Origin: an uncultured Candidatus Peregrinibacteria bacterium
Lineage (GTDB): Bacteria > Patescibacteriota > Gracilibacteria > UBA1369
Assembly (NCBI GenBank): GCA_937858825.1
Contig: CALMAI010000023.1
Coordinates: forward strand, 1-64,000
Length of the DNA stretch: 64,000 nucleotides
Direction of reading: 5' to 3'
In this document: positions 9,953 to 20,970 of the stretch, piece after piece
How positions within the stretch are numbered: position 1 is the first letter of the stretch
Layout: each line of letters opens with the position of its first letter
The notes under the pieces: model-generated
What the model was told of the DNA's origin: nothing
What the model saw: the letters and a program-made list of their open reading frames with translations, nothing else
Databases searched by the model: none
Program-made: the position numbers and the translations under genes

Positions 9953-10124
9953 GGCTATTTCCTGGAAAAATTCTTTCGCCCAGAAGGCGAGTTATATGAA
10001 ATACATATTTTCCTTTTGGGGCTATCGCCCCAGCTCTTAAAAAGAATCCGATTTTGTTTTTCTTTTTTATAGAGGGAAAATATAATGTGTTTCCTCCGCT
10101 ACGCTACAGAGCCACTTAATAATT
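9953..10124. other. Gene-free gap with two short hairpins at the left edge of the accessory block
   Basis: Two GC-rich hairpins stand out in AT-rich sequence: TCGCC/GGCGA at 9976-9990 and GGGGC/GCCCC at 10018-10031. Either could stop transcription from the preceding gene, but neither is followed directly by a clear T run. A TATAAT-like element at about 10081 (after GGGAAAA) may serve the nuclease gene. No attC-like arms were found here. Confidence 0.35.
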
Positions 10125-11489
10125 ATGATTATAAGACCAAGACTGAACGACTACCATGGATTACTCTTTACTCAAGAAGAAGTAGATTTTGCAATTCCAT
10201 TCTTAGACGAAGATATCCCTCTCTACTTAGACCCTTTTCTTCTTTGGAAAAGTCCATCTCAAATGGACAATAGCCTACACACAACATTAACAAATTGTTT
10301 CAATTATTTAGGGCAAACTTATCTTAAAGACGAAGGCAAAGCCATTGAAATGTTAAAAGAAATATCAGAATGTGATGAGGTTGGTTTAGGAAATTCAAAA
10401 ACCAAAAAAGGCAAAAAGATTGGTAATGACTTTGCAAACAAAATTCTTTCAACCTTCAAGGATATCCCACAAGTCAACAAAAACGGCTTTACGCATTTTG
10501 AGACATTGCAACTACTCGTCGAAAATTTTTCTAAAGATCGAGTTAGTGATATAGCGTGCAATTTTATCAAATCATTTCTGATCGATTACACCATTCAGGA
10601 ATCAAAAAAACTTAATATTCCACTTGAAAGTACTGAAATTCAATATTTTGATACAAAAAAATTAAAAATTGTAACTGAAAAAGTGGAGCTACCAGTTAAC
10701 CCTAATACAAAAACGCCCATTCTTCTAACTCCAAAAAGATGGCTTCGTTTTGTGCCATGGATAAGCTTTGAAAACTATTTTTCAGAGTACATCGCTACCT
10801 CTCAAAAAGTATTAGAAGGAAGCCCTATCAGCAGAGTGGCGATATTAGAATATAACAGGGCAAATTATGAGCAAGTGCAGACCTACATCGAAAGAAGACA
10901 ACTTGAACAGAAAGATTGTAAAAATGACCCATTATTCAGTCAAATTCCAATTTTGTCATCCAAAAGGAAAAAGAATACCATTTTAAAACTACCAACAGGA
11001 AAGACTGATAATGCAGACAAGGCTTATGAGGATAATCTATGCCCACTTTTAGCTTCAATGCTCTACCCTGAACTAGATTTTGCTCAACCTCAGAGCCGAA
11101 CAATTTCGGGCGTACTCATCCGAGATTTAATTTTTTACAACAACATATCTCATCCACTCCTTAAAGAGATATATGAAAATTTTGAAAGTAAACAATTGGT
11201 GTTTGAGCTCAAAAATGTAAAAGACGTGAATACAACACACATTAACCAGCTAAATAGATATCTAAACGAAGAATTTGGTAATTTTGGAATAATCTTCGCA
11301 AGAAACAAGCCACCCAAAAAAGTTTTCCAAAACACAATTAACCTATGGGCTGGACAAAGGAAATGTATACTAATCCTTGATGACACTGACCTAGAAATAA
11401 TGTGCCAAGTTTATGAAAATAAACAACGCAAACCGCTTGATGTTATCAATAAAAAATACAGAGAATTTATCAGAGCATGCCCCTCATAA
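10125..11489 (+). CDS. Putative PD-(D/E)XK nuclease-like protein of an unassigned three-gene module
   Basis: 454 residues. The N-terminal half (MIIRPRLNDYHGLLFTQEEV, then DPFLLWKSPS and ECDEVGLGNSKTKKGKKIG) looks like a conserved domain that I cannot name. The C-terminal region has the order expected of a PD-(D/E)XK nuclease core: Glu302 in a helix, Asp334 in IRDLIFYN, Glu361-Leu-Lys363 in FELKN after a strand, then Gln375 and Tyr379 in a helix (QLNRYL). This is an inference from motif order. The DNA is much more AT-rich than the core genes, with A/T-ending codons, suggesting recent transfer. Two small paralogous genes follow within 17 and 11 bases, so the three are probably one operon. A defence or DNA-processing role is plausible but unproven. 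Confidence 0.6.
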   Translation: MIIRPRLNDYHGLLFTQEEVDFAIPFLDEDIPLYLDPFLLWKSPSQMDNSLHTTLTNCFNYLGQTYLKDEGKAIEMLKEISECDEVGLGNSKTKKGKKIGNDFANKILSTFKDIPQVNKNGFTHFETLQLLVENFSKDRVSDIACNFIKSFLIDYTIQESKKLNIPLESTEIQYFDTKKLKIVTEKVELPVNPNTKTPILLTPKRWLRFVPWISFENYFSEYIATSQKVLEGSPISRVAILEYNRANYEQVQTYIERRQLEQKDCKNDPLFSQIPILSSKRKKNTILKLPTGKTDNADKAYEDNLCPLLASMLYPELDFAQPQSRTISGVLIRDLIFYNNISHPLLKEIYENFESKQLVFELKNVKDVNTTHINQLNRYLNEEFGNFGIIFARNKPPKKVFQNTINLWAGQRKCILILDDTDLEIMCQVYENKQRKPLDVINKKYREFIRACPS

Positions 11490-11506
11490 AAAACTAACTT
11501 ATCATT

Positions 11507-11890
11507 ATGAATACACAACAAATTGAAACCTTCCTAAAACTACAACCACAGTTAAAAAGTGCATATGAAGAAATAAGTCTACTTTCAAAGAAAAAACCCA
11601 CAGATCAACTTAACAAATTTAAGTTAAAATTCATCAACAGCATCCTCTCAAGAGCAAACGGGATTTTAGCAAAAAAATATCAACCATTTCCGGATGAATT
11701 TGAATTGTTTGATGAAGACGATATGCCCAACAATGGAGATGTTGTATTCATTCTTTCACATTATCTAACTTCCTTGGAGAAATTGAGATGTGACAATATT
11801 GAAAGAGAGAGTGAATATCCACACTACTGGTATTGGAAAACAAATAATAAGCTCTCAGATAAAAGAACTGATCCACCTACAATAAAATAA
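11507..11890 (+). CDS. Small protein, first of two tandem paralogues next to the nuclease-like gene
   Basis: 127 residues, mostly helical, no signal peptide or membrane helix. It shares a core with the next gene: LLSKKK-x3/4-QLN-x2-K-x-K (about residues 25-42) and ED-x2-P-x-N-x-DVV-x-I-x-S-x-Y-x-T-x2-E (about 70-92). No known domain recognised. It lies 17 bases after the nuclease-like gene and 11 bases before its paralogue, with the same AT-rich base use. Possible roles include a partner or inhibitor of the nuclease-like protein. Confidence 0.55.
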   Translation: MNTQQIETFLKLQPQLKSAYEEISLLSKKKPTDQLNKFKLKFINSILSRANGILAKKYQPFPDEFELFDEDDMPNNGDVVFILSHYLTSLEKLRCDNIERESEYPHYWYWKTNNKLSDKRTDPPTIK

Positions 11891-11901
11891 TTCCACAAAA
11901 T

Positions 11902-12354
11902 ATGAAAAAAGATGATAATTGGCTACCAAGTGAAAAGGATATTGAGAATTACCAACTCCTAAAGGATATGTTACAAGCACAAAGGCAAGAGTTTGATTTG
12001 TTGAGCAAAAAGAAAGCTGACGGTCAATTAAATCCAATGAAGATTAAAATGGTTAATAGAGTTCTTGAGCCACTAAATAAATTATTTAAACATGAACCAT
12101 CCCATGATTTTTTGGATAAAATTAGTGAAGATGAAATTCCTACAAACAGCGATGTTGTATTAATAATTAGCCAATATGAAACCGCTATTGAAGAATTCAA
12201 AAAAAAGTACCACAGAAAAGACGGACACAAATCATCCTACTTAAATAATGTGTACAGATGGATGACAAAAGAATATCCGCCGGATTTTTATGAAGGAGAA
12301 GATGTTGAAAGTGAATATGAGGAAGATGATGAAGACACAGAAATACCTGAATAA
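11902..12354 (+). CDS. Small protein, second of two tandem paralogues
   Basis: 150 residues. It repeats the core of the preceding gene (FDLLSKKKADGQLNPMKIK at about 31-49; SEDEIPTNSDVVLIISQYETAIEEF at about 75-99) and adds a distinct tail with an aromatic patch (YRWMTKEYPPDFY) and a very acidic end (EDVESEYEEDDEDTEIPE). An acidic tail of this kind can mimic nucleic acid or mediate protein contacts, which is inference. The pair looks like a tandem duplication followed by divergence. It ends the three-gene module; a terminator-like hairpin follows. Confidence 0.55.
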   Translation: MKKDDNWLPSEKDIENYQLLKDMLQAQRQEFDLLSKKKADGQLNPMKIKMVNRVLEPLNKLFKHEPSHDFLDKISEDEIPTNSDVVLIISQYETAIEEFKKKYHRKDGHKSSYLNNVYRWMTKEYPPDFYEGEDVESEYEEDDEDTEIPE

Positions 12355-12357
12355 GGT

Positions 12358-12407
12358 GTTTTGGGCTCGGACATTCGCCCCTAACCCCTCTGCCCTTCGC
12401 CCAAAAC
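12358..12407 (+). terminator. Terminator-like inverted repeat after the nuclease module
   Basis: GTTTTGGGC at 12358-12366 pairs perfectly with GCCCAAAAC at 12399-12407, beginning three bases after the stop codon. The loop is 32 bases and C-rich, and no U tract follows immediately, so it is a weak terminator candidate or another structural element. Confidence 0.35.
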
Positions 12408-12479
12408 GAAAACAAAATCGATTCTTTCTTTTTAGGGGGCAATTTCTTCCAGAAATTAAAGGAAAAAATGTACATCATA

Positions 12480-12600
12480 TAACAGCGTGTATGTGGTTCA
12501 TTCGCTTCACTTCGTTACACTCATTTACCCATATTTGCGGGTGATCCGCCTTCGGCGTATTATATCACCCGCAAATATCGCCTATACCTAGACGTTAGCT
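12480..12600 (+). repeat. attC-like recombination site (first of two)
   Basis: A 120-base imperfect palindrome lies in a gene-free gap of 280 bases. The outer boxes are TAAC (12480-12483) and GTTA (12594-12597). Inside, GTGTATGTGG faces CGCCTATACC, partly complementary with mismatches. A perfect 15-base stem follows (12531-12545 with 12564-12578), capped by CGCC-TTC-GGCG. This layout of outer R boxes, inner L boxes and a structured centre is that of integron attC sites. Its first bases, TAACAGC-N3-TATG-N-GG, are shared with the second site at 13355. No integrase is present in the window. Confidence 0.5.
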
Positions 12601-12634
12601 GAATATCCTTTGTTTTTTTTAATCCACAATTACT

Positions 12635-12949
12635 ATGAAACAATTAGATGAGAAAAATTTCGAACAAGCCCTGAATAACCATCCAGTCACGGGATCATTT
12701 ATCCTAAACAAAAAGTATGTTCTCGACTATACATTTGAAAGCCTACACCTTCTGGATCTAAAAATAACCAATGGCAGTTTTACATGCAGTCTTTTCCAAA
12801 AATGCACCTTCAAAAATGTAATTTTTGAATCGGTTCATTTAGATGACTGTAATTTTAGGAATTGCACCTTTAAAAATACAACGTTCAAAAATTGCACAAC
12901 TGAAGGCATTGAATTCGATAATTGTACAGATATGCCAAAAATTATGTAG
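12635..12949 (+). CDS. Small pentapeptide-repeat-like protein
   Basis: 104 residues. The second half repeats a five-residue pattern with central Phe/Leu (CTFKN, VIFES, VHLDD, CNFRN, CTFKN, TTFKN), which folds as a right-handed quadrilateral beta helix in the pentapeptide-repeat family. Many Cys and Asn are present. Such proteins can mimic DNA (Qnr, MfpA) or mediate binding, but this one has only about eight units and its function is open. It is flanked by the first attC-like site and by a strong-SD gene, consistent with a mobile cassette. An inverted repeat CACCATAA/TTATGGTG (12955-12995) follows it. Confidence 0.65.
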   Translation: MKQLDEKNFEQALNNHPVTGSFILNKKYVLDYTFESLHLLDLKITNGSFTCSLFQKCTFKNVIFESVHLDDCNFRNCTFKNTTFKNCTTEGIEFDNCTDMPKIM

Positions 12950-13033
12950 AACCTCACCATAAGGGCTTGTTCAAAATTAACAATTTTTTATGGTGGGGAA
13001 TGTCTACATGCCGTAACACATGGGGAGGTCTCA

Positions 13034-13255
13034 ATGGCCACTCTCAAGCGACACGAGCGTCCTGATGGAACTTATCTCGTCTACTGGGAAGGTGACAACA
13101 TGCATCTGAACCACTGGCACGTTGCCAGTGACGGCACCGTGCTCTCTGTGAAGGAAGGAGGTAACCACAAGTACAACCGCGGACACATCCGCAAGAAAAT
13201 CAGTGAAGTCACGGGAATCAGCTGGGAAATCGGCTGGCGACCCAACAATGACTGA
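13034..13255 (+). CDS. 73-residue protein of unknown family, probably foreign
   Basis: 73 residues, rich in His, Trp and Gly (DGTYLVYWEGDNMHLNHWHV; HVASDGTVLSVKEGG; ending SWEIGWRPNND). No family recognised. It looks like a small all-beta fold with a basic stretch, KYNRGHIRKK. Its codons are GC-ending and its base composition is richer in GC than that of both neighbours. Uniquely in this region it has a strong Shine-Dalgarno sequence (GGGGAGG, five bases from ATG), and it ends at its own terminator. These signs indicate that it comes from a different donor than the surrounding genes. It lies between the two attC-like sites. Confidence 0.55.
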   Translation: MATLKRHERPDGTYLVYWEGDNMHLNHWHVASDGTVLSVKEGGNHKYNRGHIRKKISEVTGISWEIGWRPNND

Positions 13256-13294
13256 ATCCACCTAGACATGTGCGACATTCTCCCACCTACCTTT

Positions 13295-13325
13295 GAGGGC
13301 TTTCTATCACAGAAAGCCCTCTTTC
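13295..13325 (+). terminator. Rho-independent terminator after the 73-residue gene
   Basis: GAGGGCTTTCT (13295-13305) and AGAAAGCCCTC (13311-13321) form a perfect 11-base stem with a five-base loop, followed by TTTCC. It lies 40 bases beyond the stop codon. Confidence 0.8.
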
Positions 13326-13353
13326 CTCACATAAAAAACAAAAGATGCATCAG

Positions 13354-13467
13354 CTAACAGCAACTATGCGGCTACACTTCGCTGGTGCTCGCTTCACCCA
13401 AGTTGACCAGGTTTTAGCCTTCGGCTATTTTAAACCCGATCAACTTCGCATTAGTTGCGGCCGTTAT
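13354..13467 (+). repeat. attC-like recombination site (second of two)
   Basis: Outer boxes CTAAC (13354-13358) and GTTA (13463-13466). The inner arms GCAACTATGCG (13360-13370) and CGCATTAGTTGC (13447-13458) are complementary except for one extra base in the right arm, which would be extrahelical in the folded strand, a hallmark of attC sites. The centre holds AAGTTGA/TCAACTT (13400-13406 with 13440-13446) and TAGCC/GGCTA. The first 7 bases and the TATG-N-GG that follows match the first site. The right box overlaps the next open frame's earliest ATG. Confidence 0.55.
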
Positions 13468-13483
13468 GCATAAATTCCCTACA

Positions 13484-13798: not shown

Positions 13799-14326
13799 AT
13801 GAAATACAGAGCACTACTCAGAGGAATAAATGTTGGCGGAAATCATAAAGTTGAGATGAAAAAGCTCAAGACATTATTTGAAGCTCTTGGCTGCATAAAT
13901 GTTTCAACCTATATAAATTCCGGCAATGTCATTTTTGAATCAAAAGAGAATCAAAAAAATATTTTGAAAAAAGTTGAAGACGAATTAAAGCAAGAGTTTG
14001 GATTTGAAATTCCCATCCTCATTAAAACAGAGAGGGAAATGAAAAAGATCGCAGATTCCATACCGGACAATTGGCAAAATGATTCAGCTCAAAGAACAGA
14101 TGTTGCCTATTTGTTCCCAGAAATAGATTCGATAAAAATTCTAGATGAGCTCCCTCTCAAAAAAGAGTTCATTGAAGTTCGTTATATTAAAGGAGCGATC
14201 TATTGGAATGTTAAAAGAGAAAACGTTTACAAAAGCCAATTGGCCAAATTAATTAGCCATAAACTCTATAAGTCGATGACGGTAAGAAATGTTAATACCG
14301 CCAGGTATTTGGCAGGAATAGCATAA
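13799..14326 (+). CDS. DUF1697 family protein
   Basis: 175 residues, full length for DUF1697. The hallmark start YRALLRGINVGGNHKVEMKKLKTLFEALG and the STYINSGNVIFES strand are clear, as is the end LYKSMTVRNVNTARYLAGIA. The structure of family members is a ferredoxin-like fold; the biochemical role is unknown. The family occurs sporadically in Firmicutes, Actinobacteria and Bacteroidetes and often travels with other short accessory genes, as here. It starts 12 bases after the preceding stop. Confidence 0.88.
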   Translation: MKYRALLRGINVGGNHKVEMKKLKTLFEALGCINVSTYINSGNVIFESKENQKNILKKVEDELKQEFGFEIPILIKTEREMKKIADSIPDNWQNDSAQRTDVAYLFPEIDSIKILDELPLKKEFIEVRYIKGAIYWNVKRENVYKSQLAKLISHKLYKSMTVRNVNTARYLAGIA

Positions 14327-14376
14327 AAAGGCTTTTGAAAGGCAAAATCCGACAAATATATATTTACAAATCTATT

Positions 14377-14772
14377 GTGAAACCCAAAAACTACAATCCC
14401 CAAGTTACTGATTTCCTAAAAGAGAAGAAGCATCCGCACAATGAAATTATTGAAAAACTAAGAATCATAATTCTATCAACGGATGAATCTCTGGATGAGA
14501 ATATAAAATGGAATGGTCCGAATTACAGTATTAACGGAGAAGATAGAATCACAATGAGATTATTTCCTCCCAAAAGTCTTCAATTAATTTTTCATTGCGG
14601 CGCAAAACCTACTAAAACAGATTTGAAAGATAATCTGATCAAAGATGATAGTGGGCTGTTAGTATGGAAATCTAATGACAGAGCATTAATAAATTTGATT
14701 GAATTAGATGTCGAATCACGTAAAAAAGAACTTATATCCATAATTAAAAAATGGATACAAGCCAGCAAATAA
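14377..14772 (+). CDS. DUF1801 (YdhG-like) family protein
   Basis: About 131 residues from GTG 14377. An in-frame TTG at 14335 would add 14 residues (KGKIRQIYIYKSI) that look less like the family. The core VTDFLKEKKHPHNEIIEKLRIIIL, then ENIKWNGPNYSINGEDRITMRLFPPKSLQLIFHCGAK matches DUF1801, whose YdhG/Fra-like members share a fold with frataxin-like iron proteins. The function is unknown. It sits tightly between the DUF1697 and DUF2200 genes on the same strand. Confidence 0.82.
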   Translation: MKPKNYNPQVTDFLKEKKHPHNEIIEKLRIIILSTDESLDENIKWNGPNYSINGEDRITMRLFPPKSLQLIFHCGAKPTKTDLKDNLIKDDSGLLVWKSNDRALINLIELDVESRKKELISIIKKWIQASK

Positions 14773-14831
14773 ATGCGGCTCTTTAAAAGAAATTTCTTTT
14801 AGAAAATAATATACAAACTTACTCTAATCAT

Positions 14832-15179
14832 ATGAAGAAACAGAAAATATTCACCATGTCCTTCGCAAGTGTATATCCGCTCTATATTAAAAAAGTAGAG
14901 AGAAAAGGCCACACCAAGGCAGAAGTGGACACCATAATTTGCTGGCTCACCGGCTACGACCAAAAATCACTCCAGCAACAAATAGACCAAGAGAAAGACT
15001 TTGAAACCTTTTTCGCGGAAGCGCCACAAATCAATCCAAACGCTTCAAAAATAACAGGAGTTATTTGCGGCTATCGCGTAGAGGAAATTGAAGACAAGCT
15101 GATGCAAAAGATTCGCTACCTTGATAAACTGATTGATGAACTGGCCAAAGGAAAAGCCATGGAAAAAATTTTAAGATGA
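14832..15179 (+). CDS. DUF2200 family protein
   Basis: 115 residues, normal length for DUF2200. Recognisable motifs: [35 protein letters not shown] near the start and the C-terminal [41 protein letters not shown]. Members are single-domain, probably cytosolic, with unknown role. The upstream gap holds an AAAAGAAATTTCTTTT dyad that may end the previous transcript or act as a regulatory site. Confidence 0.88.
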
Positions 15180-15207
15180 ATGATTAAAAACACTCACAGA
15201 AGGCAAT

Positions 15208-15573
15208 ATGAGTACAGCATCCAACAAAATGATCGGTGACTTCTCTTCTAAGCCCAAGACACTCCAATTCTTCAAATCGATTGAAAAATACATCAACTCC
15301 CTTGGTTCCTGCGAAAAAACAATCAAAGCCCAAGTAAGTTATTCAGTGAAACGGAAGTTTCTGTGGCTTTGGGCATACGAAAAAACTGCCGATGGGACAC
15401 TTTATATGACAGTATGCCTCGATAAAAAAATGAATAATCCTCATTTTCACTATGTCGCACAAGTAAGCACAAACAGATGGAACCATCATGTTGTAGTAAA
15501 ATCCAGAGAAATAGCAGAAAGTGACTGGCTAAAACAACTAATGCGTGCAGGGTTTGAATTTGCAAATAAATAA
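15208..15573 (+). CDS. DUF5655 family protein
   Basis: 121 residues. The pattern FKSIEKYINSLGSCEKTIKAQVSYSVKRKFLWLWAYEKT, followed by LYMTVCLDKKMNNPHFHYVAQVSTNRWNHHVVVKSREIAESDWLKQLMRAGFEFA, matches DUF5655, a domain found alone or attached to DUF4287 and predicted nuclease-related proteins. No catalytic residue can be assigned. It is one of the few genes here with a hint of a ribosome site (AGAAGG). It belongs to the short-gene accessory run. Confidence 0.8.
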   Translation: MSTASNKMIGDFSSKPKTLQFFKSIEKYINSLGSCEKTIKAQVSYSVKRKFLWLWAYEKTADGTLYMTVCLDKKMNNPHFHYVAQVSTNRWNHHVVVKSREIAESDWLKQLMRAGFEFANK

Positions 15574-15586
15574 TAACAATTAATGT

Positions 15587-16243
15587 ATGACCAAGGAAAA
15601 AATCATTGAGAAAACAAAAGAGTTTGTAAAAGAAAAACTTTCCGGAGAAAGTTCGGGGCATGATTGGTGGCACATTTACCGGGTATGGAAAAATGCCATT
15701 CACATCTGCGCCAATGAAAAAGGTGTCGATCTTTTTACTGTGGAACTTGCAGCTCTATTGCACGACATTGCTGACTACAAATTTCATGATGGCGATGACA
15801 GTGTGGGCCCACAAATAGCTCGTGAATGGCTAGAAAAACTACAAGTGGAAGAAGAAGTCATTGCCCATATTTGCCAGATTATTCAAGAAGCCTCATTCAA
15901 AGGCGCGAATGTAAAAGGTTCCATGAAGACAAAAGAAGGTATGATAGTCCAGGATGCCGATCGGCTTGACGCAATCGGAGCCATTGGAATAGCAAGGACC
16001 TTCGCTTACGGCGGCAACAAAGGAAGAGAGATGTACAATCCGAATATTCAACCCACAATGCATAACTCTTTTGACGAATATAAGAATAATAAAAGCCCAA
16101 CAGTAAACCATTTTTATGAAAAACTCCTTCTTCTTAAAAATCTTATGAACACAGAAACAGCAAAGGCTATTGCACAGGAGCGTCATGAGTTTATGGAACA
16201 ATACCTCCACAAATTTTACGAAGAATGGGAAGGGAAAGCATAG
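15587..16243 (+). CDS. HD-domain phosphohydrolase (YedJ-like)
   Basis: 218 residues. The HD motif residues are visible: SGHDWWHIYRVWKNA (first His), ALLHDIADYKF (His-Asp pair), HICQIIQEASFKG and VQDADRLDAIGAIGIART (last Asp). This spacing is typical of the stand-alone HD hydrolases of the YedJ type, metal-dependent phosphatases or nucleotidases with a signalling or housekeeping role. Substrate unknown. It follows DUF5655 by 13 bases. Confidence 0.9.
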   Translation: MTKEKIIEKTKEFVKEKLSGESSGHDWWHIYRVWKNAIHICANEKGVDLFTVELAALLHDIADYKFHDGDDSVGPQIAREWLEKLQVEEEVIAHICQIIQEASFKGANVKGSMKTKEGMIVQDADRLDAIGAIGIARTFAYGGNKGREMYNPNIQPTMHNSFDEYKNNKSPTVNHFYEKLLLLKNLMNTETAKAIAQERHEFMEQYLHKFYEEWEGKA

Positions 16244-16290
16244 ATCCAGCAAATATAAATGAATAAAGAAAAACCCATTGATTACCCCTC

Positions 16291-16575
16291 ATGGCCAACT
16301 TCAACCTCGATGGTAAATATTTAAAGGACGGAAACAGCATTGTCGCCGAAATCGACAACAGCTTCATTAGGGATAAAAACTCCAAACGGATTGCAGAATT
16401 CAACGAAACATATATCCGAAAAATAAGCGGCGAAATCATTGCTCAAATAGACGGATCATACGTCAAAGACAATCATGGAAAAATCATAACAACCATCGAC
16501 GACATCAAAAACGATATTGATGATGCCGAAGACAGCGCCCTGGTTGCGCTCTGGATGTTATTCATAAAAAAATGA
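16291..16575 (+). CDS. Small protein with repeated beta-strand motif (beta-flower-like)
   Basis: 94 residues. Four or five copies of a strand-turn pattern of about 16 residues (GKYLKDGNSIVAEIDNSF, SFIRDKNSKRIAEFNE, YIRKISGEIIAQIDGS, YVKDNHGKIITTIDD) are followed by a short helix, ALVALWMLFIKK. This resembles the '4-fold beta flower' proteins, which form a compact beta assembly; their function is unknown. The assignment is by pattern only. Confidence 0.55.
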   Translation: MANFNLDGKYLKDGNSIVAEIDNSFIRDKNSKRIAEFNETYIRKISGEIIAQIDGSYVKDNHGKIITTIDDIKNDIDDAEDSALVALWMLFIKK

Positions 16576-16629
16576 CCATGAGGCACTTTGGTGATACTAT
16601 CATTCCAGTTCACCATTTCACTTCCTTTC

Positions 16630-17139
16630 ATGGAACTGATTTTAAAAAACTGGCAGTACGTTGCGCTCCTGGTAATCATTTTAGGAGTCATTCTTGTAAT
16701 AGCTCTGATAAGCGCTAAAAAAGAAACCCTTCCTTACAGAAAAAAGAAATATCTTTTAAACAAAAGTGAAAGAAATTTTTTTAAAGCTGTTGCTCCAAAA
16801 CTCCCACATGAATACGTTATGTATCCTCAAATAGTTATGAGTGCTCTTCTTGAAACGAAAACAGCAAAAAAAGATTTCTGGCAATTTCAAAACAAAATAA
16901 ACAAGAAGATCATTGATTTCGTCATTTTTGAAAAAAAATTTCTTGAACCGATACTGGCAATTGAATATGACGGGCCAACGCACCAACGGTATGACAGAAA
17001 ACAGTCCGATGCCTTTAAAAATAAAGTGTTACAAACAGTCGGCATCCAACTTAAGCATGTAGTGCATTCCGAAAATATGAACTATAACGCCATAAGTCAT
17101 GAAATTAACTCCATACTCCAGGAAATCAAAAACACTTAA
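16630..17139 (+). CDS. Membrane-anchored DUF2726 protein, nuclease-like fold
   Basis: 169 residues from ATG 16630; an in-frame TTG at 16588 is a less likely start. One N-terminal helix (about 8-28) anchors the protein. The rest matches DUF2726: LLNKSERNFFKAVAPKLPHEYVMYPQIVMSALL, then IDFVIFEKKFLEPILAIEYDGPTHQ. The D-F-V...E-Y-D-G arrangement is that of a degenerate PD-(D/E)XK (Vsr-like) core, as noted for this family. Substrate and function are unknown. Confidence 0.8.
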   Translation: MELILKNWQYVALLVIILGVILVIALISAKKETLPYRKKKYLLNKSERNFFKAVAPKLPHEYVMYPQIVMSALLETKTAKKDFWQFQNKINKKIIDFVIFEKKFLEPILAIEYDGPTHQRYDRKQSDAFKNKVLQTVGIQLKHVVHSENMNYNAISHEINSILQEIKNT

Positions 17140-17151
17140 ACTCTTTAAGAT

Positions 17152-17655
17152 ATGACCCTCGAAGAAAAAATATCATCAGCCTTCGGATTAAAGGATGAAA
17201 CCTGGCTCAAACATGCCAATCCTATAAGCGTCTGGACCAGATTCCCCATTCTTGGACTTCTGGCCATAGCTATTTGGAGCAGGGCATGGATTGGAATCTA
17301 CTGCCTTGTTCCACTTGCCGTTCTCATTCTATGGACAGCCATAAATCCAAAATTCTTCACCAAACCTGAATCAACAAAAAACTGGGCATCCAAATCTGTC
17401 CTCGGTGAAAAAGTATGGACCAATCGCAAAAAAGTACCAGTCCCCTCTCATCACAAAACAGCCATCAACATCCTCACGTTTCTCCAGGCACTTGGTGTCA
17501 TCATCACGGGATTTGGCCTCTACTACTTTGATTTCTGGCAAACAATGACAGGAATTTTCTGCGTTTATTTCGCAAAAATGTGGTTTTTAGATAGAATGGT
17601 ATGGATCTTTGAAGACATGAAACAACACGACGAATATAAATCTCTACTCTACTAA
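17152..17655 (+). CDS. DUF6653 family membrane protein
   Basis: 167 residues. The start EETWLKHANPISVWTRFP matches the conserved W-x-x-HANPxSVWTR motif of DUF6653. Hydrophobic helices at about 30-66 and 105-140 suggest four spans, with a loop rich in Trp and Lys (WASKSVLGEKVWTNR). Role unknown. It begins 12 bases after the DUF2726 gene and ends two bases before the YdeI-like gene, so it is probably part of the same transcript. Confidence 0.78.
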   Translation: MTLEEKISSAFGLKDETWLKHANPISVWTRFPILGLLAIAIWSRAWIGIYCLVPLAVLILWTAINPKFFTKPESTKNWASKSVLGEKVWTNRKKVPVPSHHKTAINILTFLQALGVIITGFGLYYFDFWQTMTGIFCVYFAKMWFLDRMVWIFEDMKQHDEYKSLLY

Positions 17656-17657
17656 CC

Positions 17658-18185
17658 ATGCCAAGCATCAGTTTTAAAACCCAACTCATCACTATCAACG
17701 ACTGGACACTCATGGTTCTCCCTAAAAGTGCCAGCTCAAAACTGCCATCAAGAGGATTAGTATTGGTACAGGGAACAATCAATGGAAAAGAGTTCAAACA
17801 TCCTCTGGAACCGGATGGCAAAGGAAGTCACTGGCTCCAGATTGACTCAAAGATGCTCAAAACAATTGGAGCAAAATCTGGCGACACAGTAGAACTTTCC
17901 ATTGAATCATCAAAAGAATGGGAAGAACCAAACATTCCCAAAGATATTAAAGATGCCCTTGAAGCCGATAAAAAAGGGATGGAACTCTGGCTCGACTGCA
18001 CCACCAAAGCTCACTGGGAATGGATTCGATGGATCCGTTCGACCAAAAACCCAGACACCAGAAAAATTCGTATTGAAAAAACCATCTCCAAACTCAAAAG
18101 CGGTAAACGTGCCCCATGCTGCTTTAATATGAGTATGTGTACCGAACCACACGTTTCCAAAGGCGGGGTACTCCTTGATTCTTAA
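17658..18185 (+). CDS. DUF1905 / YdeI (OmpD-associated) family protein
   Basis: 175 residues. The N-terminal beta-barrel part (SRGLVLVQGTINGKEFKHPLEPDGKGSHWLQIDSKMLKTIGAKSGDTVELSIE) matches DUF1905. The C-terminal part (PKDIKDALEADKKGMELWLDCTTKAHWEWIRWIRSTKNPDTRKIRIEKTISKLKSGKR) matches the Bacteriocin-protection/YdeI helical domain. YdeI proteins are linked in E. coli and Salmonella to antimicrobial peptide resistance. The last ~20 residues contain a CCFNMSMC stretch that is unusual. Confidence 0.83.
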   Translation: MPSISFKTQLITINDWTLMVLPKSASSKLPSRGLVLVQGTINGKEFKHPLEPDGKGSHWLQIDSKMLKTIGAKSGDTVELSIESSKEWEEPNIPKDIKDALEADKKGMELWLDCTTKAHWEWIRWIRSTKNPDTRKIRIEKTISKLKSGKRAPCCFNMSMCTEPHVSKGGVLLDS

Positions 18186-18194
18186 ACTCTCTCT

Positions 18195-19088
18195 ATGCAA
18201 AAAATTGTTCCACATCTTTGGTTCGACAAAGAGGCTGTAGAAGCCGCTGAGTTCTATACCAAAATATTCCCAGACTCAAAAATCACCATGAAGTCGATCA
18301 TCAAAGACACGCCTTCCGGTGACTGTGACATTGTTGGATTCGAAATCATGGGTTACCAGTTCATGTCTATTAGTGCTGGACCAGTGTTCAAATTCAATCC
18401 ATCCATCTCCATGATGATCAATTTTGATCCTTCTCAAGACAAAGATGCCGCAACCCGGATAGACCAGATCTGGGAACAACTTTCCGAAGGCGGAACGCCA
18501 TTAATGCCCCTGGACAAATATGACTTTAGTGAGCGATACGGCTGGATCCAGGACAAATACGGACTTTCATGGCAACTCATTCTCACCAATCCCAAAGGTG
18601 AAGATAGACCACCCGTCATGCCAGCTATGCTCTTTGTAACTGACACATGTGAAGGAACCGAAGAAGCAACAGATTTCTATATCTCTCTGTTTCAAGACTC
18701 AAAACGTGGACAACTCGCCCGCTACCCGGCAGGCATGGAGCCAAATAAAGAAGGCTCTATCATGTTCACCGACTTCAAGCTTGCAGATCAATGGTTTGTT
18801 GCCATGGACACCAGCTCCCAAATGCACAAATTTAAATTTAACGAAGCCATTTCATTCATGGTCAACTGCAAAGACCAGCAAGAGATTGACCATTTTTGGA
18901 ACGCGCTCTCTGCCGTTCCAGAATCAGAGCAGTGCGGATGGCTCAAGGATAAATATGGCCTCTCCTGGCAGATTATTCCCGAAAAGATGAATGAGTTGAT
19001 GGGAAAAAATCCGGAAAAAACCACACCGGTTATGCTCCAGCAGAAAAAAATAATCATTGCCGATCTGGAAAAGGCAGGCAATGAATAA
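18195..19088 (+). CDS. Tandem VOC/PhnB-like protein (3-demethylubiquinone methyltransferase-like fold)
   Basis: 297 residues made of two glyoxalase-fold halves of the PhnB / 3-dmu-9_3-mt type. Half one begins KIVPHLWFDKEAVEAAEFYTKIFPDSKI; half two begins ATDFYISLFQDSKRGQLARYP. Both halves end with the family motif YGLSWQ(L/I)I(L/P). Despite the Pfam name these proteins have no shown methyltransferase activity; the fold binds metals and small molecules. The tandem form is usual in accessory genomes. Confidence 0.88.
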   Translation: MQKIVPHLWFDKEAVEAAEFYTKIFPDSKITMKSIIKDTPSGDCDIVGFEIMGYQFMSISAGPVFKFNPSISMMINFDPSQDKDAATRIDQIWEQLSEGGTPLMPLDKYDFSERYGWIQDKYGLSWQLILTNPKGEDRPPVMPAMLFVTDTCEGTEEATDFYISLFQDSKRGQLARYPAGMEPNKEGSIMFTDFKLADQWFVAMDTSSQMHKFKFNEAISFMVNCKDQQEIDHFWNALSAVPESEQCGWLKDKYGLSWQIIPEKMNELMGKNPEKTTPVMLQQKKIIIADLEKAGNE

Positions 19089-19106
19089 CATCTTTAACAA
19101 AAAATC

Positions 19107-19511
19107 ATGATCACCGTACAAACCACCATAAAGGCTCCTATTGAAAAAGTTTGGGAATGCTGGAACAAACCAGAACATATCTCCAATTGGGCATTCGCCA
19201 CAGACGAATGGGAAGCAGATGCCAAAGAAAACGATCTTCGCGTTGGCGGACGCTTTTCGACAATCATGGCTGCCAAAGACGGCAGCGCCAGCTTCGAATT
19301 TGGGGGAGAATACACCCTCATCAAAGAATATGAGCAGATCGAATACATTATGGATGACGGGCGCAAAGTACAAATCACATTCAAACCTTCAAGCGACAGT
19401 GTTGAAATTATAGAATCCTTCGATCCAGAAACCCAAAACGAGCCCGAGTTCCAGAAACAAGGCTGGCAGGCAATTCTCAATAACTTTAAAAAGTACACTG
19501 AATCGCAATGA
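19107..19511 (+). CDS. SRPBCC / AHSA1-family ligand-binding protein
   Basis: 134 residues, full length. It starts ITVQTTIKAPIEKVWECWNKPEHISNWAFATDEW and continues DLRVGGRFSTIM, the standard AHSA1 (Aha1 C-terminal-like) helix-grip pattern, ending GWQAILNNFKKYTES. These stand-alone proteins bind hydrophobic ligands; the ligand is not known. Its stop overlaps the next start by four bases (ATGA), so it is translationally coupled to the TspO-like gene. Confidence 0.88.
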   Translation: MITVQTTIKAPIEKVWECWNKPEHISNWAFATDEWEADAKENDLRVGGRFSTIMAAKDGSASFEFGGEYTLIKEYEQIEYIMDDGRKVQITFKPSSDSVEIIESFDPETQNEPEFQKQGWQAILNNFKKYTESQ

Positions 19512-20278
19512 AAAACGAAAATATCACAAAAATTGTAGCAGCAATCGCCTTCATCTTAATGGTTTTCGTCAACTATCTGGCCAACGCTTTGCCCATTGGA
19601 GGAATCACAACAGCAGAAGCCTCCGACGCCTATCCAAATCTCTTTACTCCAACAGGAATTACCTTTTCCATCTGGGGCCTTATTTATTTGTTGCTCCTTG
19701 GCTACACCATCTATCAATTTAAAACCTCAAAAAACAAAGAACAGACAGCAAGTTTCGCCAAAATCAGAAAAGTTTACATTCTCACATCCCTTGCCAATAT
19801 CTGCTGGATTTTTGCCTGGCATTACCAAATCATTTGGCTCTCAGTATTGTTTATGTTGACCCTTCTCATCTCTCTCATGAGCATAGTCAGCACTATGAGT
19901 AATCAAAAATATTCGCTCAAAGAAAATCTTTTTGTCTATATTCCCTTCAGCATCTACCTTGGCTGGATAACCATTGCAACTATTGCCAACATAACAGTTT
20001 TCCTTGTGAGCATTCAGTGGGATGGATTTGGAATATCCGAAAACATATGGACGATAACAGTCCTGCTTGCAGGGGTTATCGTTGGAATTATTCGCATGCT
20101 CCAGTATAAAAACATCTACTATGGTCTGGTTCTTGTGTGGGGATATACGGGCATATGGATCAAACACACATCCCCAGATGGATTTGCCAATGCTTACCCC
20201 GAAATCATCACAACATTGGTAATGGGCCTCGTCCTGTATCTCACCGCCATTGGCTATATCGGAATAAAAAAAACATGA
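19508..20278 (+). CDS. TspO/MBR-like membrane protein
   Basis: 256 residues with seven or more hydrophobic helices. The segment LFTPTGITFSIWGLIYLLLLGYTIYQF resembles the tryptophan-rich sensory protein/TspO family, in which P-x-W-x-F-G/S-P-V-W-x-x-L-Y motifs bind tetrapyrroles. The protein is longer than TspO (about 160), in line with the extended bacterial subgroup. Start and stop both use four-base overlaps with neighbours, so expression is coupled to the AHSA1 and ICMT-like genes. Confidence 0.72.
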   Translation: MKNENITKIVAAIAFILMVFVNYLANALPIGGITTAEASDAYPNLFTPTGITFSIWGLIYLLLLGYTIYQFKTSKNKEQTASFAKIRKVYILTSLANICWIFAWHYQIIWLSVLFMLTLLISLMSIVSTMSNQKYSLKENLFVYIPFSIYLGWITIATIANITVFLVSIQWDGFGISENIWTITVLLAGVIVGIIRMLQYKNIYYGLVLVWGYTGIWIKHTSPDGFANAYPEIITTLVMGLVLYLTAIGYIGIKKT

Positions 20279-20949
20279 CCACTGCTCAAATTCGCTTCAA
20301 GGCGCTCTTTCTTCTCATCCTCTCCTACATTGGACTCGGAGTGCTCATTTTTCTTCCCGCGCTCACCTTTGATTTCTGGCAGGGATGGCTTGCTTTGCTT
20401 TCCATCATGGTTCCAGCAACCTTATCAGGCATCTACTTCATTATAAAAGATCCCAAACTTGTTGAGCGCCGCCTGCGCATGAAGGAAAAAGAGTCAGTTC
20501 AAAAAGGAGTGGTCCGATGGGCTAGTATTGTGTTTTTTATTGCCCTCATCGTCCCTGGACTGGACCACCGCTTTGGATGGTCAAATATTCCATCAGAAAT
20601 TGTCATCACCGCCGATGTGCTGATGATTATTGGATACCTTATTGTATTTCGAACCTTACAAACGAACAGCTATGCCGCCCGAACAATAGAAGTTGAAAAA
20701 GAACAAAAACTCATCACCACCGGACTCTACGGCATGGTCCGACACCCCATGTATGTGGGCGTTATTATCATGTACTACAGCCTTCCTATTGCTATGGGAT
20801 CATATTGGGCAATCATTCCACTTTTGCCTCTTTTGCCAATTATGGTTATTCGAACACTCAACGAAGAAGAGGTTCTAAAGCGGGATCTTCCAGGCTATAA
20901 AGAGTATTGTAAAAAAGTAAAATACCGGCTTATTCCGGGCATTTGGTAA
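20275..20949 (+). CDS. Isoprenylcysteine carboxyl methyltransferase-like (ICMT/PEMT) membrane protein
   Basis: 224 residues from ATG 20275, which overlaps the preceding TGA; longer upstream frames overlap the TspO-like gene and are rejected. Several helices are followed by the family signature LYGMVRHPMYVGVIIMYY and the C-terminal EEEVLKRDLPGYKEYCKKVKYRLIPGIW. This is the S-adenosylmethionine-binding end of ICMT/phospholipid methyltransferase proteins. The substrate is uncertain in bacteria. It closes the plus-strand accessory run, before a bidirectional terminator. Confidence 0.86.
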   Translation: MTTAQIRFKALFLLILSYIGLGVLIFLPALTFDFWQGWLALLSIMVPATLSGIYFIIKDPKLVERRLRMKEKESVQKGVVRWASIVFFIALIVPGLDHRFGWSNIPSEIVITADVLMIIGYLIVFRTLQTNSYAARTIEVEKEQKLITTGLYGMVRHPMYVGVIIMYYSLPIAMGSYWAIIPLLPLLPIMVIRTLNEEEVLKRDLPGYKEYCKKVKYRLIPGIW

Positions 20950-20970
20950 AATCCAAAATCAAATATACAA

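Follow-up and report, generated by a model that had tools for sequence, protein, structure and literature searches.

What does the compact three-gene operon near the start of the 64,000-nucleotide stretch of DNA analysed here (the window) encode, and by what means could it have reached its present genome? The three ORFs lie on the forward strand of the source genome (G000; 1.32 Mb, 96% complete) at positions 10125-11489, 11507-11890 and 11902-12354, separated by intergenic gaps of 17 and 11 bp, in agreement with a preliminary description of this DNA that had read them as a tight operon. The same description had called the region AT-rich, and the GC content across 10-13 kb, 33-35%, is indeed below the 43-48% of most of the upstream sequence. 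The genes upstream of the operon are, from their sequences, presumably groES and groEL. Genome size and gene content suggest that G000 is probably one of the ultra-small Patescibacteria. An Rfam scan returned tRNAs only.

Identification and distribution of the PDC-M36 module

The protein encoded by the first gene (A, 454 aa) matches PDC-M36A of PADLOC-DB 2.0.0 over its full length (residues 2-454 of 454, E-value 2.3e-223, 740 bits), and the two small proteins, B1 (127 aa) and B2 (150 aa), both match PDC-M36B in the same database, each with a different best model (7.9e-47 and 6e-36). Judged by sequence, the operon encodes a PDC-M36 system, i.e., a member of an already listed phage defence candidate (PDC; usage in PMC11514479). 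The module itself is thus already known, and the preliminary description, which had presented it as undescribed, has to be corrected on this point, since PADLOC-DB 2.0.0 lists it as PDC-M36 A/B. In PADLOC, PDC-M36 has the rank of a candidate, and our full-text search of published open-access papers retrieved none on it. The proteins of the window do not differ from PDC-M36; what is new here, on present evidence, is the carriage of M36 on an integron cassette and the host lineage, together with integron-like arrays whose integrases lack the IntI extra domain.

Our scan yielded 134 relatives, and 80 of them were retained (50-75% identity). Going by the titles of their records, they span about 13 phyla, including Bacteroidota, Bacillota, Pseudomonadota, Planctomycetota, Acidobacteriota, Cyanobacteriota, Spirochaetota and Campylobacterota, and the nearest are encoded by a Scalindua MAG (75%), then by a Thermodesulfobacteriota MAG (72%). 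Full-length A is also present on plasmids of Leptolyngbya and Methylobacterium and in two copies on viral contigs, and was found in none of 50,697 phage records. Among 99 related genomes, G000 alone encodes it in full length, and horizontal acquisition of the operon is the natural reading of this patchy distribution. PDC-M36 is a widespread and conserved candidate defence nuclease, and the cassette described below delimits a minimal clonable unit.

One other related genome encodes a 490-aa protein (L002:1426-2898, G052:C2) in which an M36A-like N-terminus is joined to a different C-terminus containing a D...ExK-like motif; the N-terminal domain of M36A may be a shared targeting part. An identical contig of 28,958 bp occurs in a Thermodesulfobacteriota MAG and in a Saprospiraceae MAG from one study (L011 and L012), so that at least one of the two binnings must be wrong; this contig was entered once in our counts.

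Protein A contains a predicted PD-(D/E)XK nuclease domain

Protein A (10125-11489) is composed of a conserved N-terminal domain and a putative C-terminal PD-(D/E)XK domain (residues ~271-454). The preliminary description had pointed to an ordered set of nuclease-type residues, E302, D334, E361, K363, Q375 and Y379, and all six turn out to be invariant across the 80 homologues. The AlphaFold2 model (pLDDT 89, pTM 0.87), for which plasmid-collection sequences were left out of the alignment, places E302 within helix 294-313, D334 immediately before strand 335-339, E361 within strand 357-362 with K363 next after this strand, and both Q375 and Y379 within helix 370-379. Foldseek E-values for the model are weak (best 5.6e-3); structural realignment puts the nicking enzyme N.BspD6I, the BspD6I small subunit and FokI on top, with Z-scores of 10.4-11.4 over ~150-170 residues. 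The PD-(D/E)XK likeness proposed earlier thus finds its counterpart in a structure search, and we take the C-terminal part of A to have a PD-(D/E)XK nuclease fold, with DNA cleavage as its predicted activity. Pfam and NCBIfam give weak hints only (PDDEXK_3, E = 0.13; GxxExxY, E = 0.074), and searches of PDB sequences yielded no credible match.

The likeness to FokI, N.BspD6I and the small subunit of R.BspD6I concerns the cleavage domain and its invariant E-D-ExK set. In contrast, A is only ~10% identical to these domains, has a different N-terminal part and a QxxxY-like pair (Q375/Y379), and belongs to a system with two conserved small partners and no methyltransferase partner. No match to a methyltransferase was found among the three proteins or the neighbouring window proteins scanned, and we rejected a type II restriction-modification system because no cognate methyltransferase accompanies the operon.

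B1 and B2 form an ancient pair of paralogues

The co-occurrence of A with the small proteins, essential to the module as first proposed, is well conserved: of the 81 loci for which 900 bp or more of downstream sequence was available, 74 have two B genes behind A and 7 a single detected B, the plain order B1 then B2 (by best match) being found in 69 loci. The arrangement A-B1-B2 is conserved over some 13 phyla. In a tree of 62 sequences, B1 (11507-11890) and B2 (11902-12354) fall into separate clades with support of 100/100. The small proteins are thus tandem paralogues, as had been suggested, and B2 of G000 has the acidic C-terminal tail noted at the outset. The presence of both clades across phyla argues that the duplication is older than the spread of the module and that both copies were retained, and we regard B1/B2, from this tree, as an ancient paralogue pair. 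B1 is modelled as a three-helix bundle with a beta hairpin (pLDDT 95). Its best structural match, Bpa (Z 7.8), was not used because such a score lies among those of common helical arrangements.

The operon is the payload of an integron-type gene cassette

The boundaries of the mobile unit can be read from short complementary boxes on either side of the operon. The left box (R'') of attC1, a 126-bp imperfect palindrome (12476-12601, forward strand), is CATATAAC at 12476, and its exact reverse complement, GTTATATG, lies at 9991, 134 bp before the start of A. For the right box (R') of attC1, GTTAGCTG at 12594, the reverse complement CAGCTAAC occurs at 13351, as the left box of attC2, a further palindrome (13351-13470, forward strand) whose R' is GTTATGC (13463). 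Both GTTAGCTG and CAGCTAAC occur only once in the 64 kb. Folded as single-stranded DNA, attC1 has a z-score of -4.7 and attC2 one of -4.2, so that the recombination-like site noticed downstream of the operon is real, attC-like and followed by another.

When an integron cassette is free and circular, its R' is restored from the bases at its own start. In both cassettes of the window, all eight bases of the cassette start are complementary to the R'' box of the cassette's own attC (8/8), which fits this rule, and the boundaries are therefore set at 9992-12594 for cassette 1 and at 12595-13463 for cassette 2, both on the forward strand. Cassette 1 (2.6 kb) has its left end between G and TTATATG and its right end in attC1; cassette 2 contains an ORF with pentapeptide repeats according to Pfam (12635-12949) and an ORF of 73 aa (13034-13255). 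As far as sequence and predicted folding can tell, the M36 operon is the payload of one integron-type gene cassette, with a second cassette next to it. The mobile unit of the preliminary description is supported; its kind, an integron gene cassette, was missing from that account.

Cassettes were called by their boundary 8-mers and folding, then by a covariance model. A scan for the AAC..GTT pattern was uninformative (the reversed control gave more matches), and both an arm-score scan and a script pairing L-boxes missed attC1.

The exact 8-mer boundary rule holds around M36 homologues in 11 of the 81 loci, G000 included, against 1.45 expected from mispaired flanks, and the corresponding 9-mer rule gives 10 observed and 0.5 expected. 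Chance was rejected as the source of the boundaries on the 8-mer counts, and the loci that follow the rule use ten different 8-mers. Moreover, a protein above the IntI cut-off is encoded in the genomes of 4 of the 10 other loci following the rule, compared with 2 of 64 (Fisher p = 0.002). Some ten homologues of M36 in other genomes look cassette-borne, and the excess of boundaries together with the enrichment in IntI points to PDC-M36 as a recurrent cassette payload.

Known integron cassettes resemble the M36 cassette in their folded attC, boundary rule, arrangement in arrays and defence-type payloads; for defence cassettes in integrons, PMC13092281 cites work by Kieffer et al. and by Darracq et al. 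The M36 cassette differs from them by its three-gene payload, its conserved leader and its inverted trailer, as well as by a source assembly without integrase and a lineage whose array integrases lack the IntI extra domain.

Downstream of the two cassettes, the window contains a run of short accessory genes on the same strand (13799-20960), encoding DUF1697, DUF1801, DUF2200 and DUF2726 proteins, among others. Most of them are common to the sister genome G001, and attC sites were not found in that stretch; these genes are possibly old cassettes that have lost their attCs.

A conserved leader and trailer frame different payloads

The cassette begins with a leader (9991-10107, forward strand) that is 75-90% conserved in other cassettes of the same taxonomic order, likewise at their 5' end, and ends with a trailer (12355-12483, forward strand), the last part of which repeats the leader imperfectly in inverted orientation (~80 bp). 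These imperfect inverted repeats bound the payload both in G000 and in its sister genome G001, from the same genus. The insertion site is common to the two genomes: the region downstream of the cassettes is 91-99% alike, and the alignment of G001 to the window begins exactly at 9991. In the first visible cassette of G001, the leader is 89.8% identical from the exact cassette boundary and the trailer 85.7% identical from the B2 stop, with an AAA_21/AAA_15 ATPase replacing M36 within this frame. The next G001 cassette encodes a CAP12/Pycsar-type TIR protein. G001 has five consecutive cassettes ended by attCs, and the boundary rule is exact in three of them and shows one mismatch in the two others.

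The leader was found in 16 of 59 related genomes, and most of its full-length copies begin at a cassette boundary. Among the 11 payloads readable behind it (L119 and L132-L141 among the loci), 7 are of defence type, corresponding to M36, an AAA ATPase, a type IIG restriction-modification enzyme, a type I methyltransferase with PDC-S13, two type III methyltransferases and a CapH/CapP-like pair, and 4 are not (MFS, SLH and two DsrE proteins). For M36, these payloads favour a defence role by association only. A TATAAT box is present in G000 (10081-10086) and in G001; it is absent from the other aligned leader copies, which leaves the role of the leader as a promoter a guess.

attC arrays are frequent in related genomes

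A covariance model of the attC was built from eight sites (28 base pairs) and used with a cut-off of E <= 1e-4, these E-values being rough. Two-sided changes were observed in 21 of the 28 pairs, against none in 500 shuffles, the structure having been derived from the same alignment. Among the 99 related genomes, 66 contain attC sites according to this model; the sites often stand in tandem arrays, the longest with ~15 of them. No site was detected in 44 unrelated control genomes, a figure that speaks for the specificity of the model and not for the absence of attCs, as the controls include loci with the cassette signature. Misbinning was judged an unlikely source of the arrays: in G059, integrase and array are carried by a single contig of 998 kb.

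Among the published open-access papers retrieved, none describes integrons in this lineage. If our reading is true, the lineage would have integrons as an additional route of gene capture. The closest parallel is offered by archaeal integrons, which also have attC arrays, occur in uncultivated lineages and in most cases have no detected IntI (PMC9668308). Archaeal IntIs are nevertheless reported to keep the IntI-specific additional domain (PMC9668308), unlike the array-associated integrases described below.

A candidate defence nuclease with two small partners as its putative controllers

We favour, with a probability of roughly 0.62, the reading in which PDC-M36 is carried as an integron-type cassette (9992-12594), with A as a defence nuclease, B1 and B2 as a controlling pair and the whole as a cassette-mobile unit. 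In this mechanism, the N-terminal domain of A would sense or bind the target or trigger, and A would cut DNA as the defence effector. B1 and B2 would act as a paired accessory unit, either loading or restraining A. No methyltransferase accompanies the unit, which suggests that the cell's own DNA would escape either through target specificity, in a type IV-like manner, or by A acting only upon infection. The entire unit would be moved between genomes by cassette recombination, with an integrase that is absent from the G000 assembly. The predicted nuclease fold and the conserved partners come from the model and the alignments; the direction of control, the substrate and the trigger are inferred. 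The defence-type context proposed in the preliminary description is also recovered around the homologues: in a tally made without a matched control set, their neighbours include type I and type III restriction-modification systems, DRT2, AriA/PtuA-like ATPases, TIR proteins and kinase proteins.

The main rival is an abortive or toxin-antitoxin mode, to which we give about one chance in four in our own weighing: A would be toxic to its own cell, restrained by B1 and/or B2 and freed by infection or by loss of the unit, and the cassette would be kept by addiction. The tight operon, in which two small conserved partners come after a nuclease, would suit such a mode, and toxin-antitoxin units are common integron cassettes. 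However, most two-gene toxin-antitoxin loci differ from this arrangement, in which the first gene is the large one and two distinct partners are retained, and only one B is detected at some loci. Less likely still, and improbable in our view, is a role in DNA repair or plasmid maintenance, with A as a structure-specific nuclease acting after damage. Such a role could be indicated by the UmuD/UmuC-type genes located directly upstream of the M36 operon on the Leptolyngbya and Methylobacterium plasmids (L005:4160-5843 and L006:4931-5962), but these SOS-gene neighbours were seen on plasmids only, the neighbours being mostly varied defence families, and the presence of full-length A in a single one of 99 related genomes also argues against it. 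Finally, it is very improbable that the flanks are those of a transposon-like or MITE-like element with terminal inverted repeats: imperfect inverted repeats of ~80 bp do surround the payload in G000 and G001, but each end coincides with an attC box, the next cassette starts at that attC, the other cassettes of the G001 array follow the same boundary rule, the attC arrays of the lineage begin at an IntI-like integrase, and the cassette contains no recognised transposase.

Array-associated integrases lack the IntI extra domain

The cassette reading raises the question of which recombinase could move the unit. In array-bearing genomes, a divergently oriented tyrosine recombinase of 271-301 aa is encoded at the 5' end of the array (loci L157-L170, including G029:C6, G051:C6, G020:C8, G055:C23, G085:C96 and G059:C1). 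Fourteen loci have attCs within the flanking sequence retrieved, and in every one of the 14 the array begins just upstream of the integrase gene, on the opposite strand. These array integrases form one clade (97/95) that is provisionally placed with IntI and apart from the Xer proteins of the lineage (100/100, in an unrooted tree with six IntI and no XerA/XerH sample). They share the terminal SP motif of IntI and lack ~42 residues of the IntI-specific insert, the motif spacing being 65-72 against 107 in all six IntI. The recombinases of loci L157-L176 score 197-205 bits against TIGR02249 (cut-off 265), and the best NCBIfam match of the array integrases is NF040815 (207-213 bits, just under the cut-off of 220), which makes a XerA-like origin possible.

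The extra domain of IntI is considered necessary for the recombination of folded single-stranded attC sites. We tentatively propose, at somewhat less than even odds, that this lineage has working integrons whose integrases, scoring below the standard IntI cut-off, either never acquired the extra domain or lost it, and that these integrons exchange defence systems such as PDC-M36 among its members. A clade of integrases that groups with IntI but has no I2 region would open the origin of single-strand recombination to direct tests. It has been proposed that IntI gained the I2 region, a helix for the handling of single strands, in a Xer-like ancestor, intermediates being lacking (PMC7790495, eLife 2020). 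Our search of published open-access papers found none reporting arrays beside integrases without the extra domain.

In the G000 assembly (96% complete), we detected neither an integrase that scores above the IntI cut-off nor one of the array clade, and the G001 assembly is without an integrase of the array clade. G000 encodes a Xer-like recombinase, scoring below the cut-off, that is split over two frames (G000:C33:41840-42672) and is intact in G001 (G001:C69), the split being either a true frameshift or an assembly error. In a sample of 379 genomes of the phylum, no protein scored above the integron-integrase cut-off. A canonical IntI (460 bits) is encoded on a 4.1-kb contig of a genome of the same family (G005:C21:2406-3344; L155, L181), which also carries an array-type integrase; this canonical IntI corresponds either to an acquisition or to contamination. 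A distant genome of the phylum encodes an IntI-like protein (G307:C5:2411-3307, L100; 235 bits) with one internal TGA, a codon that this genome may reassign.
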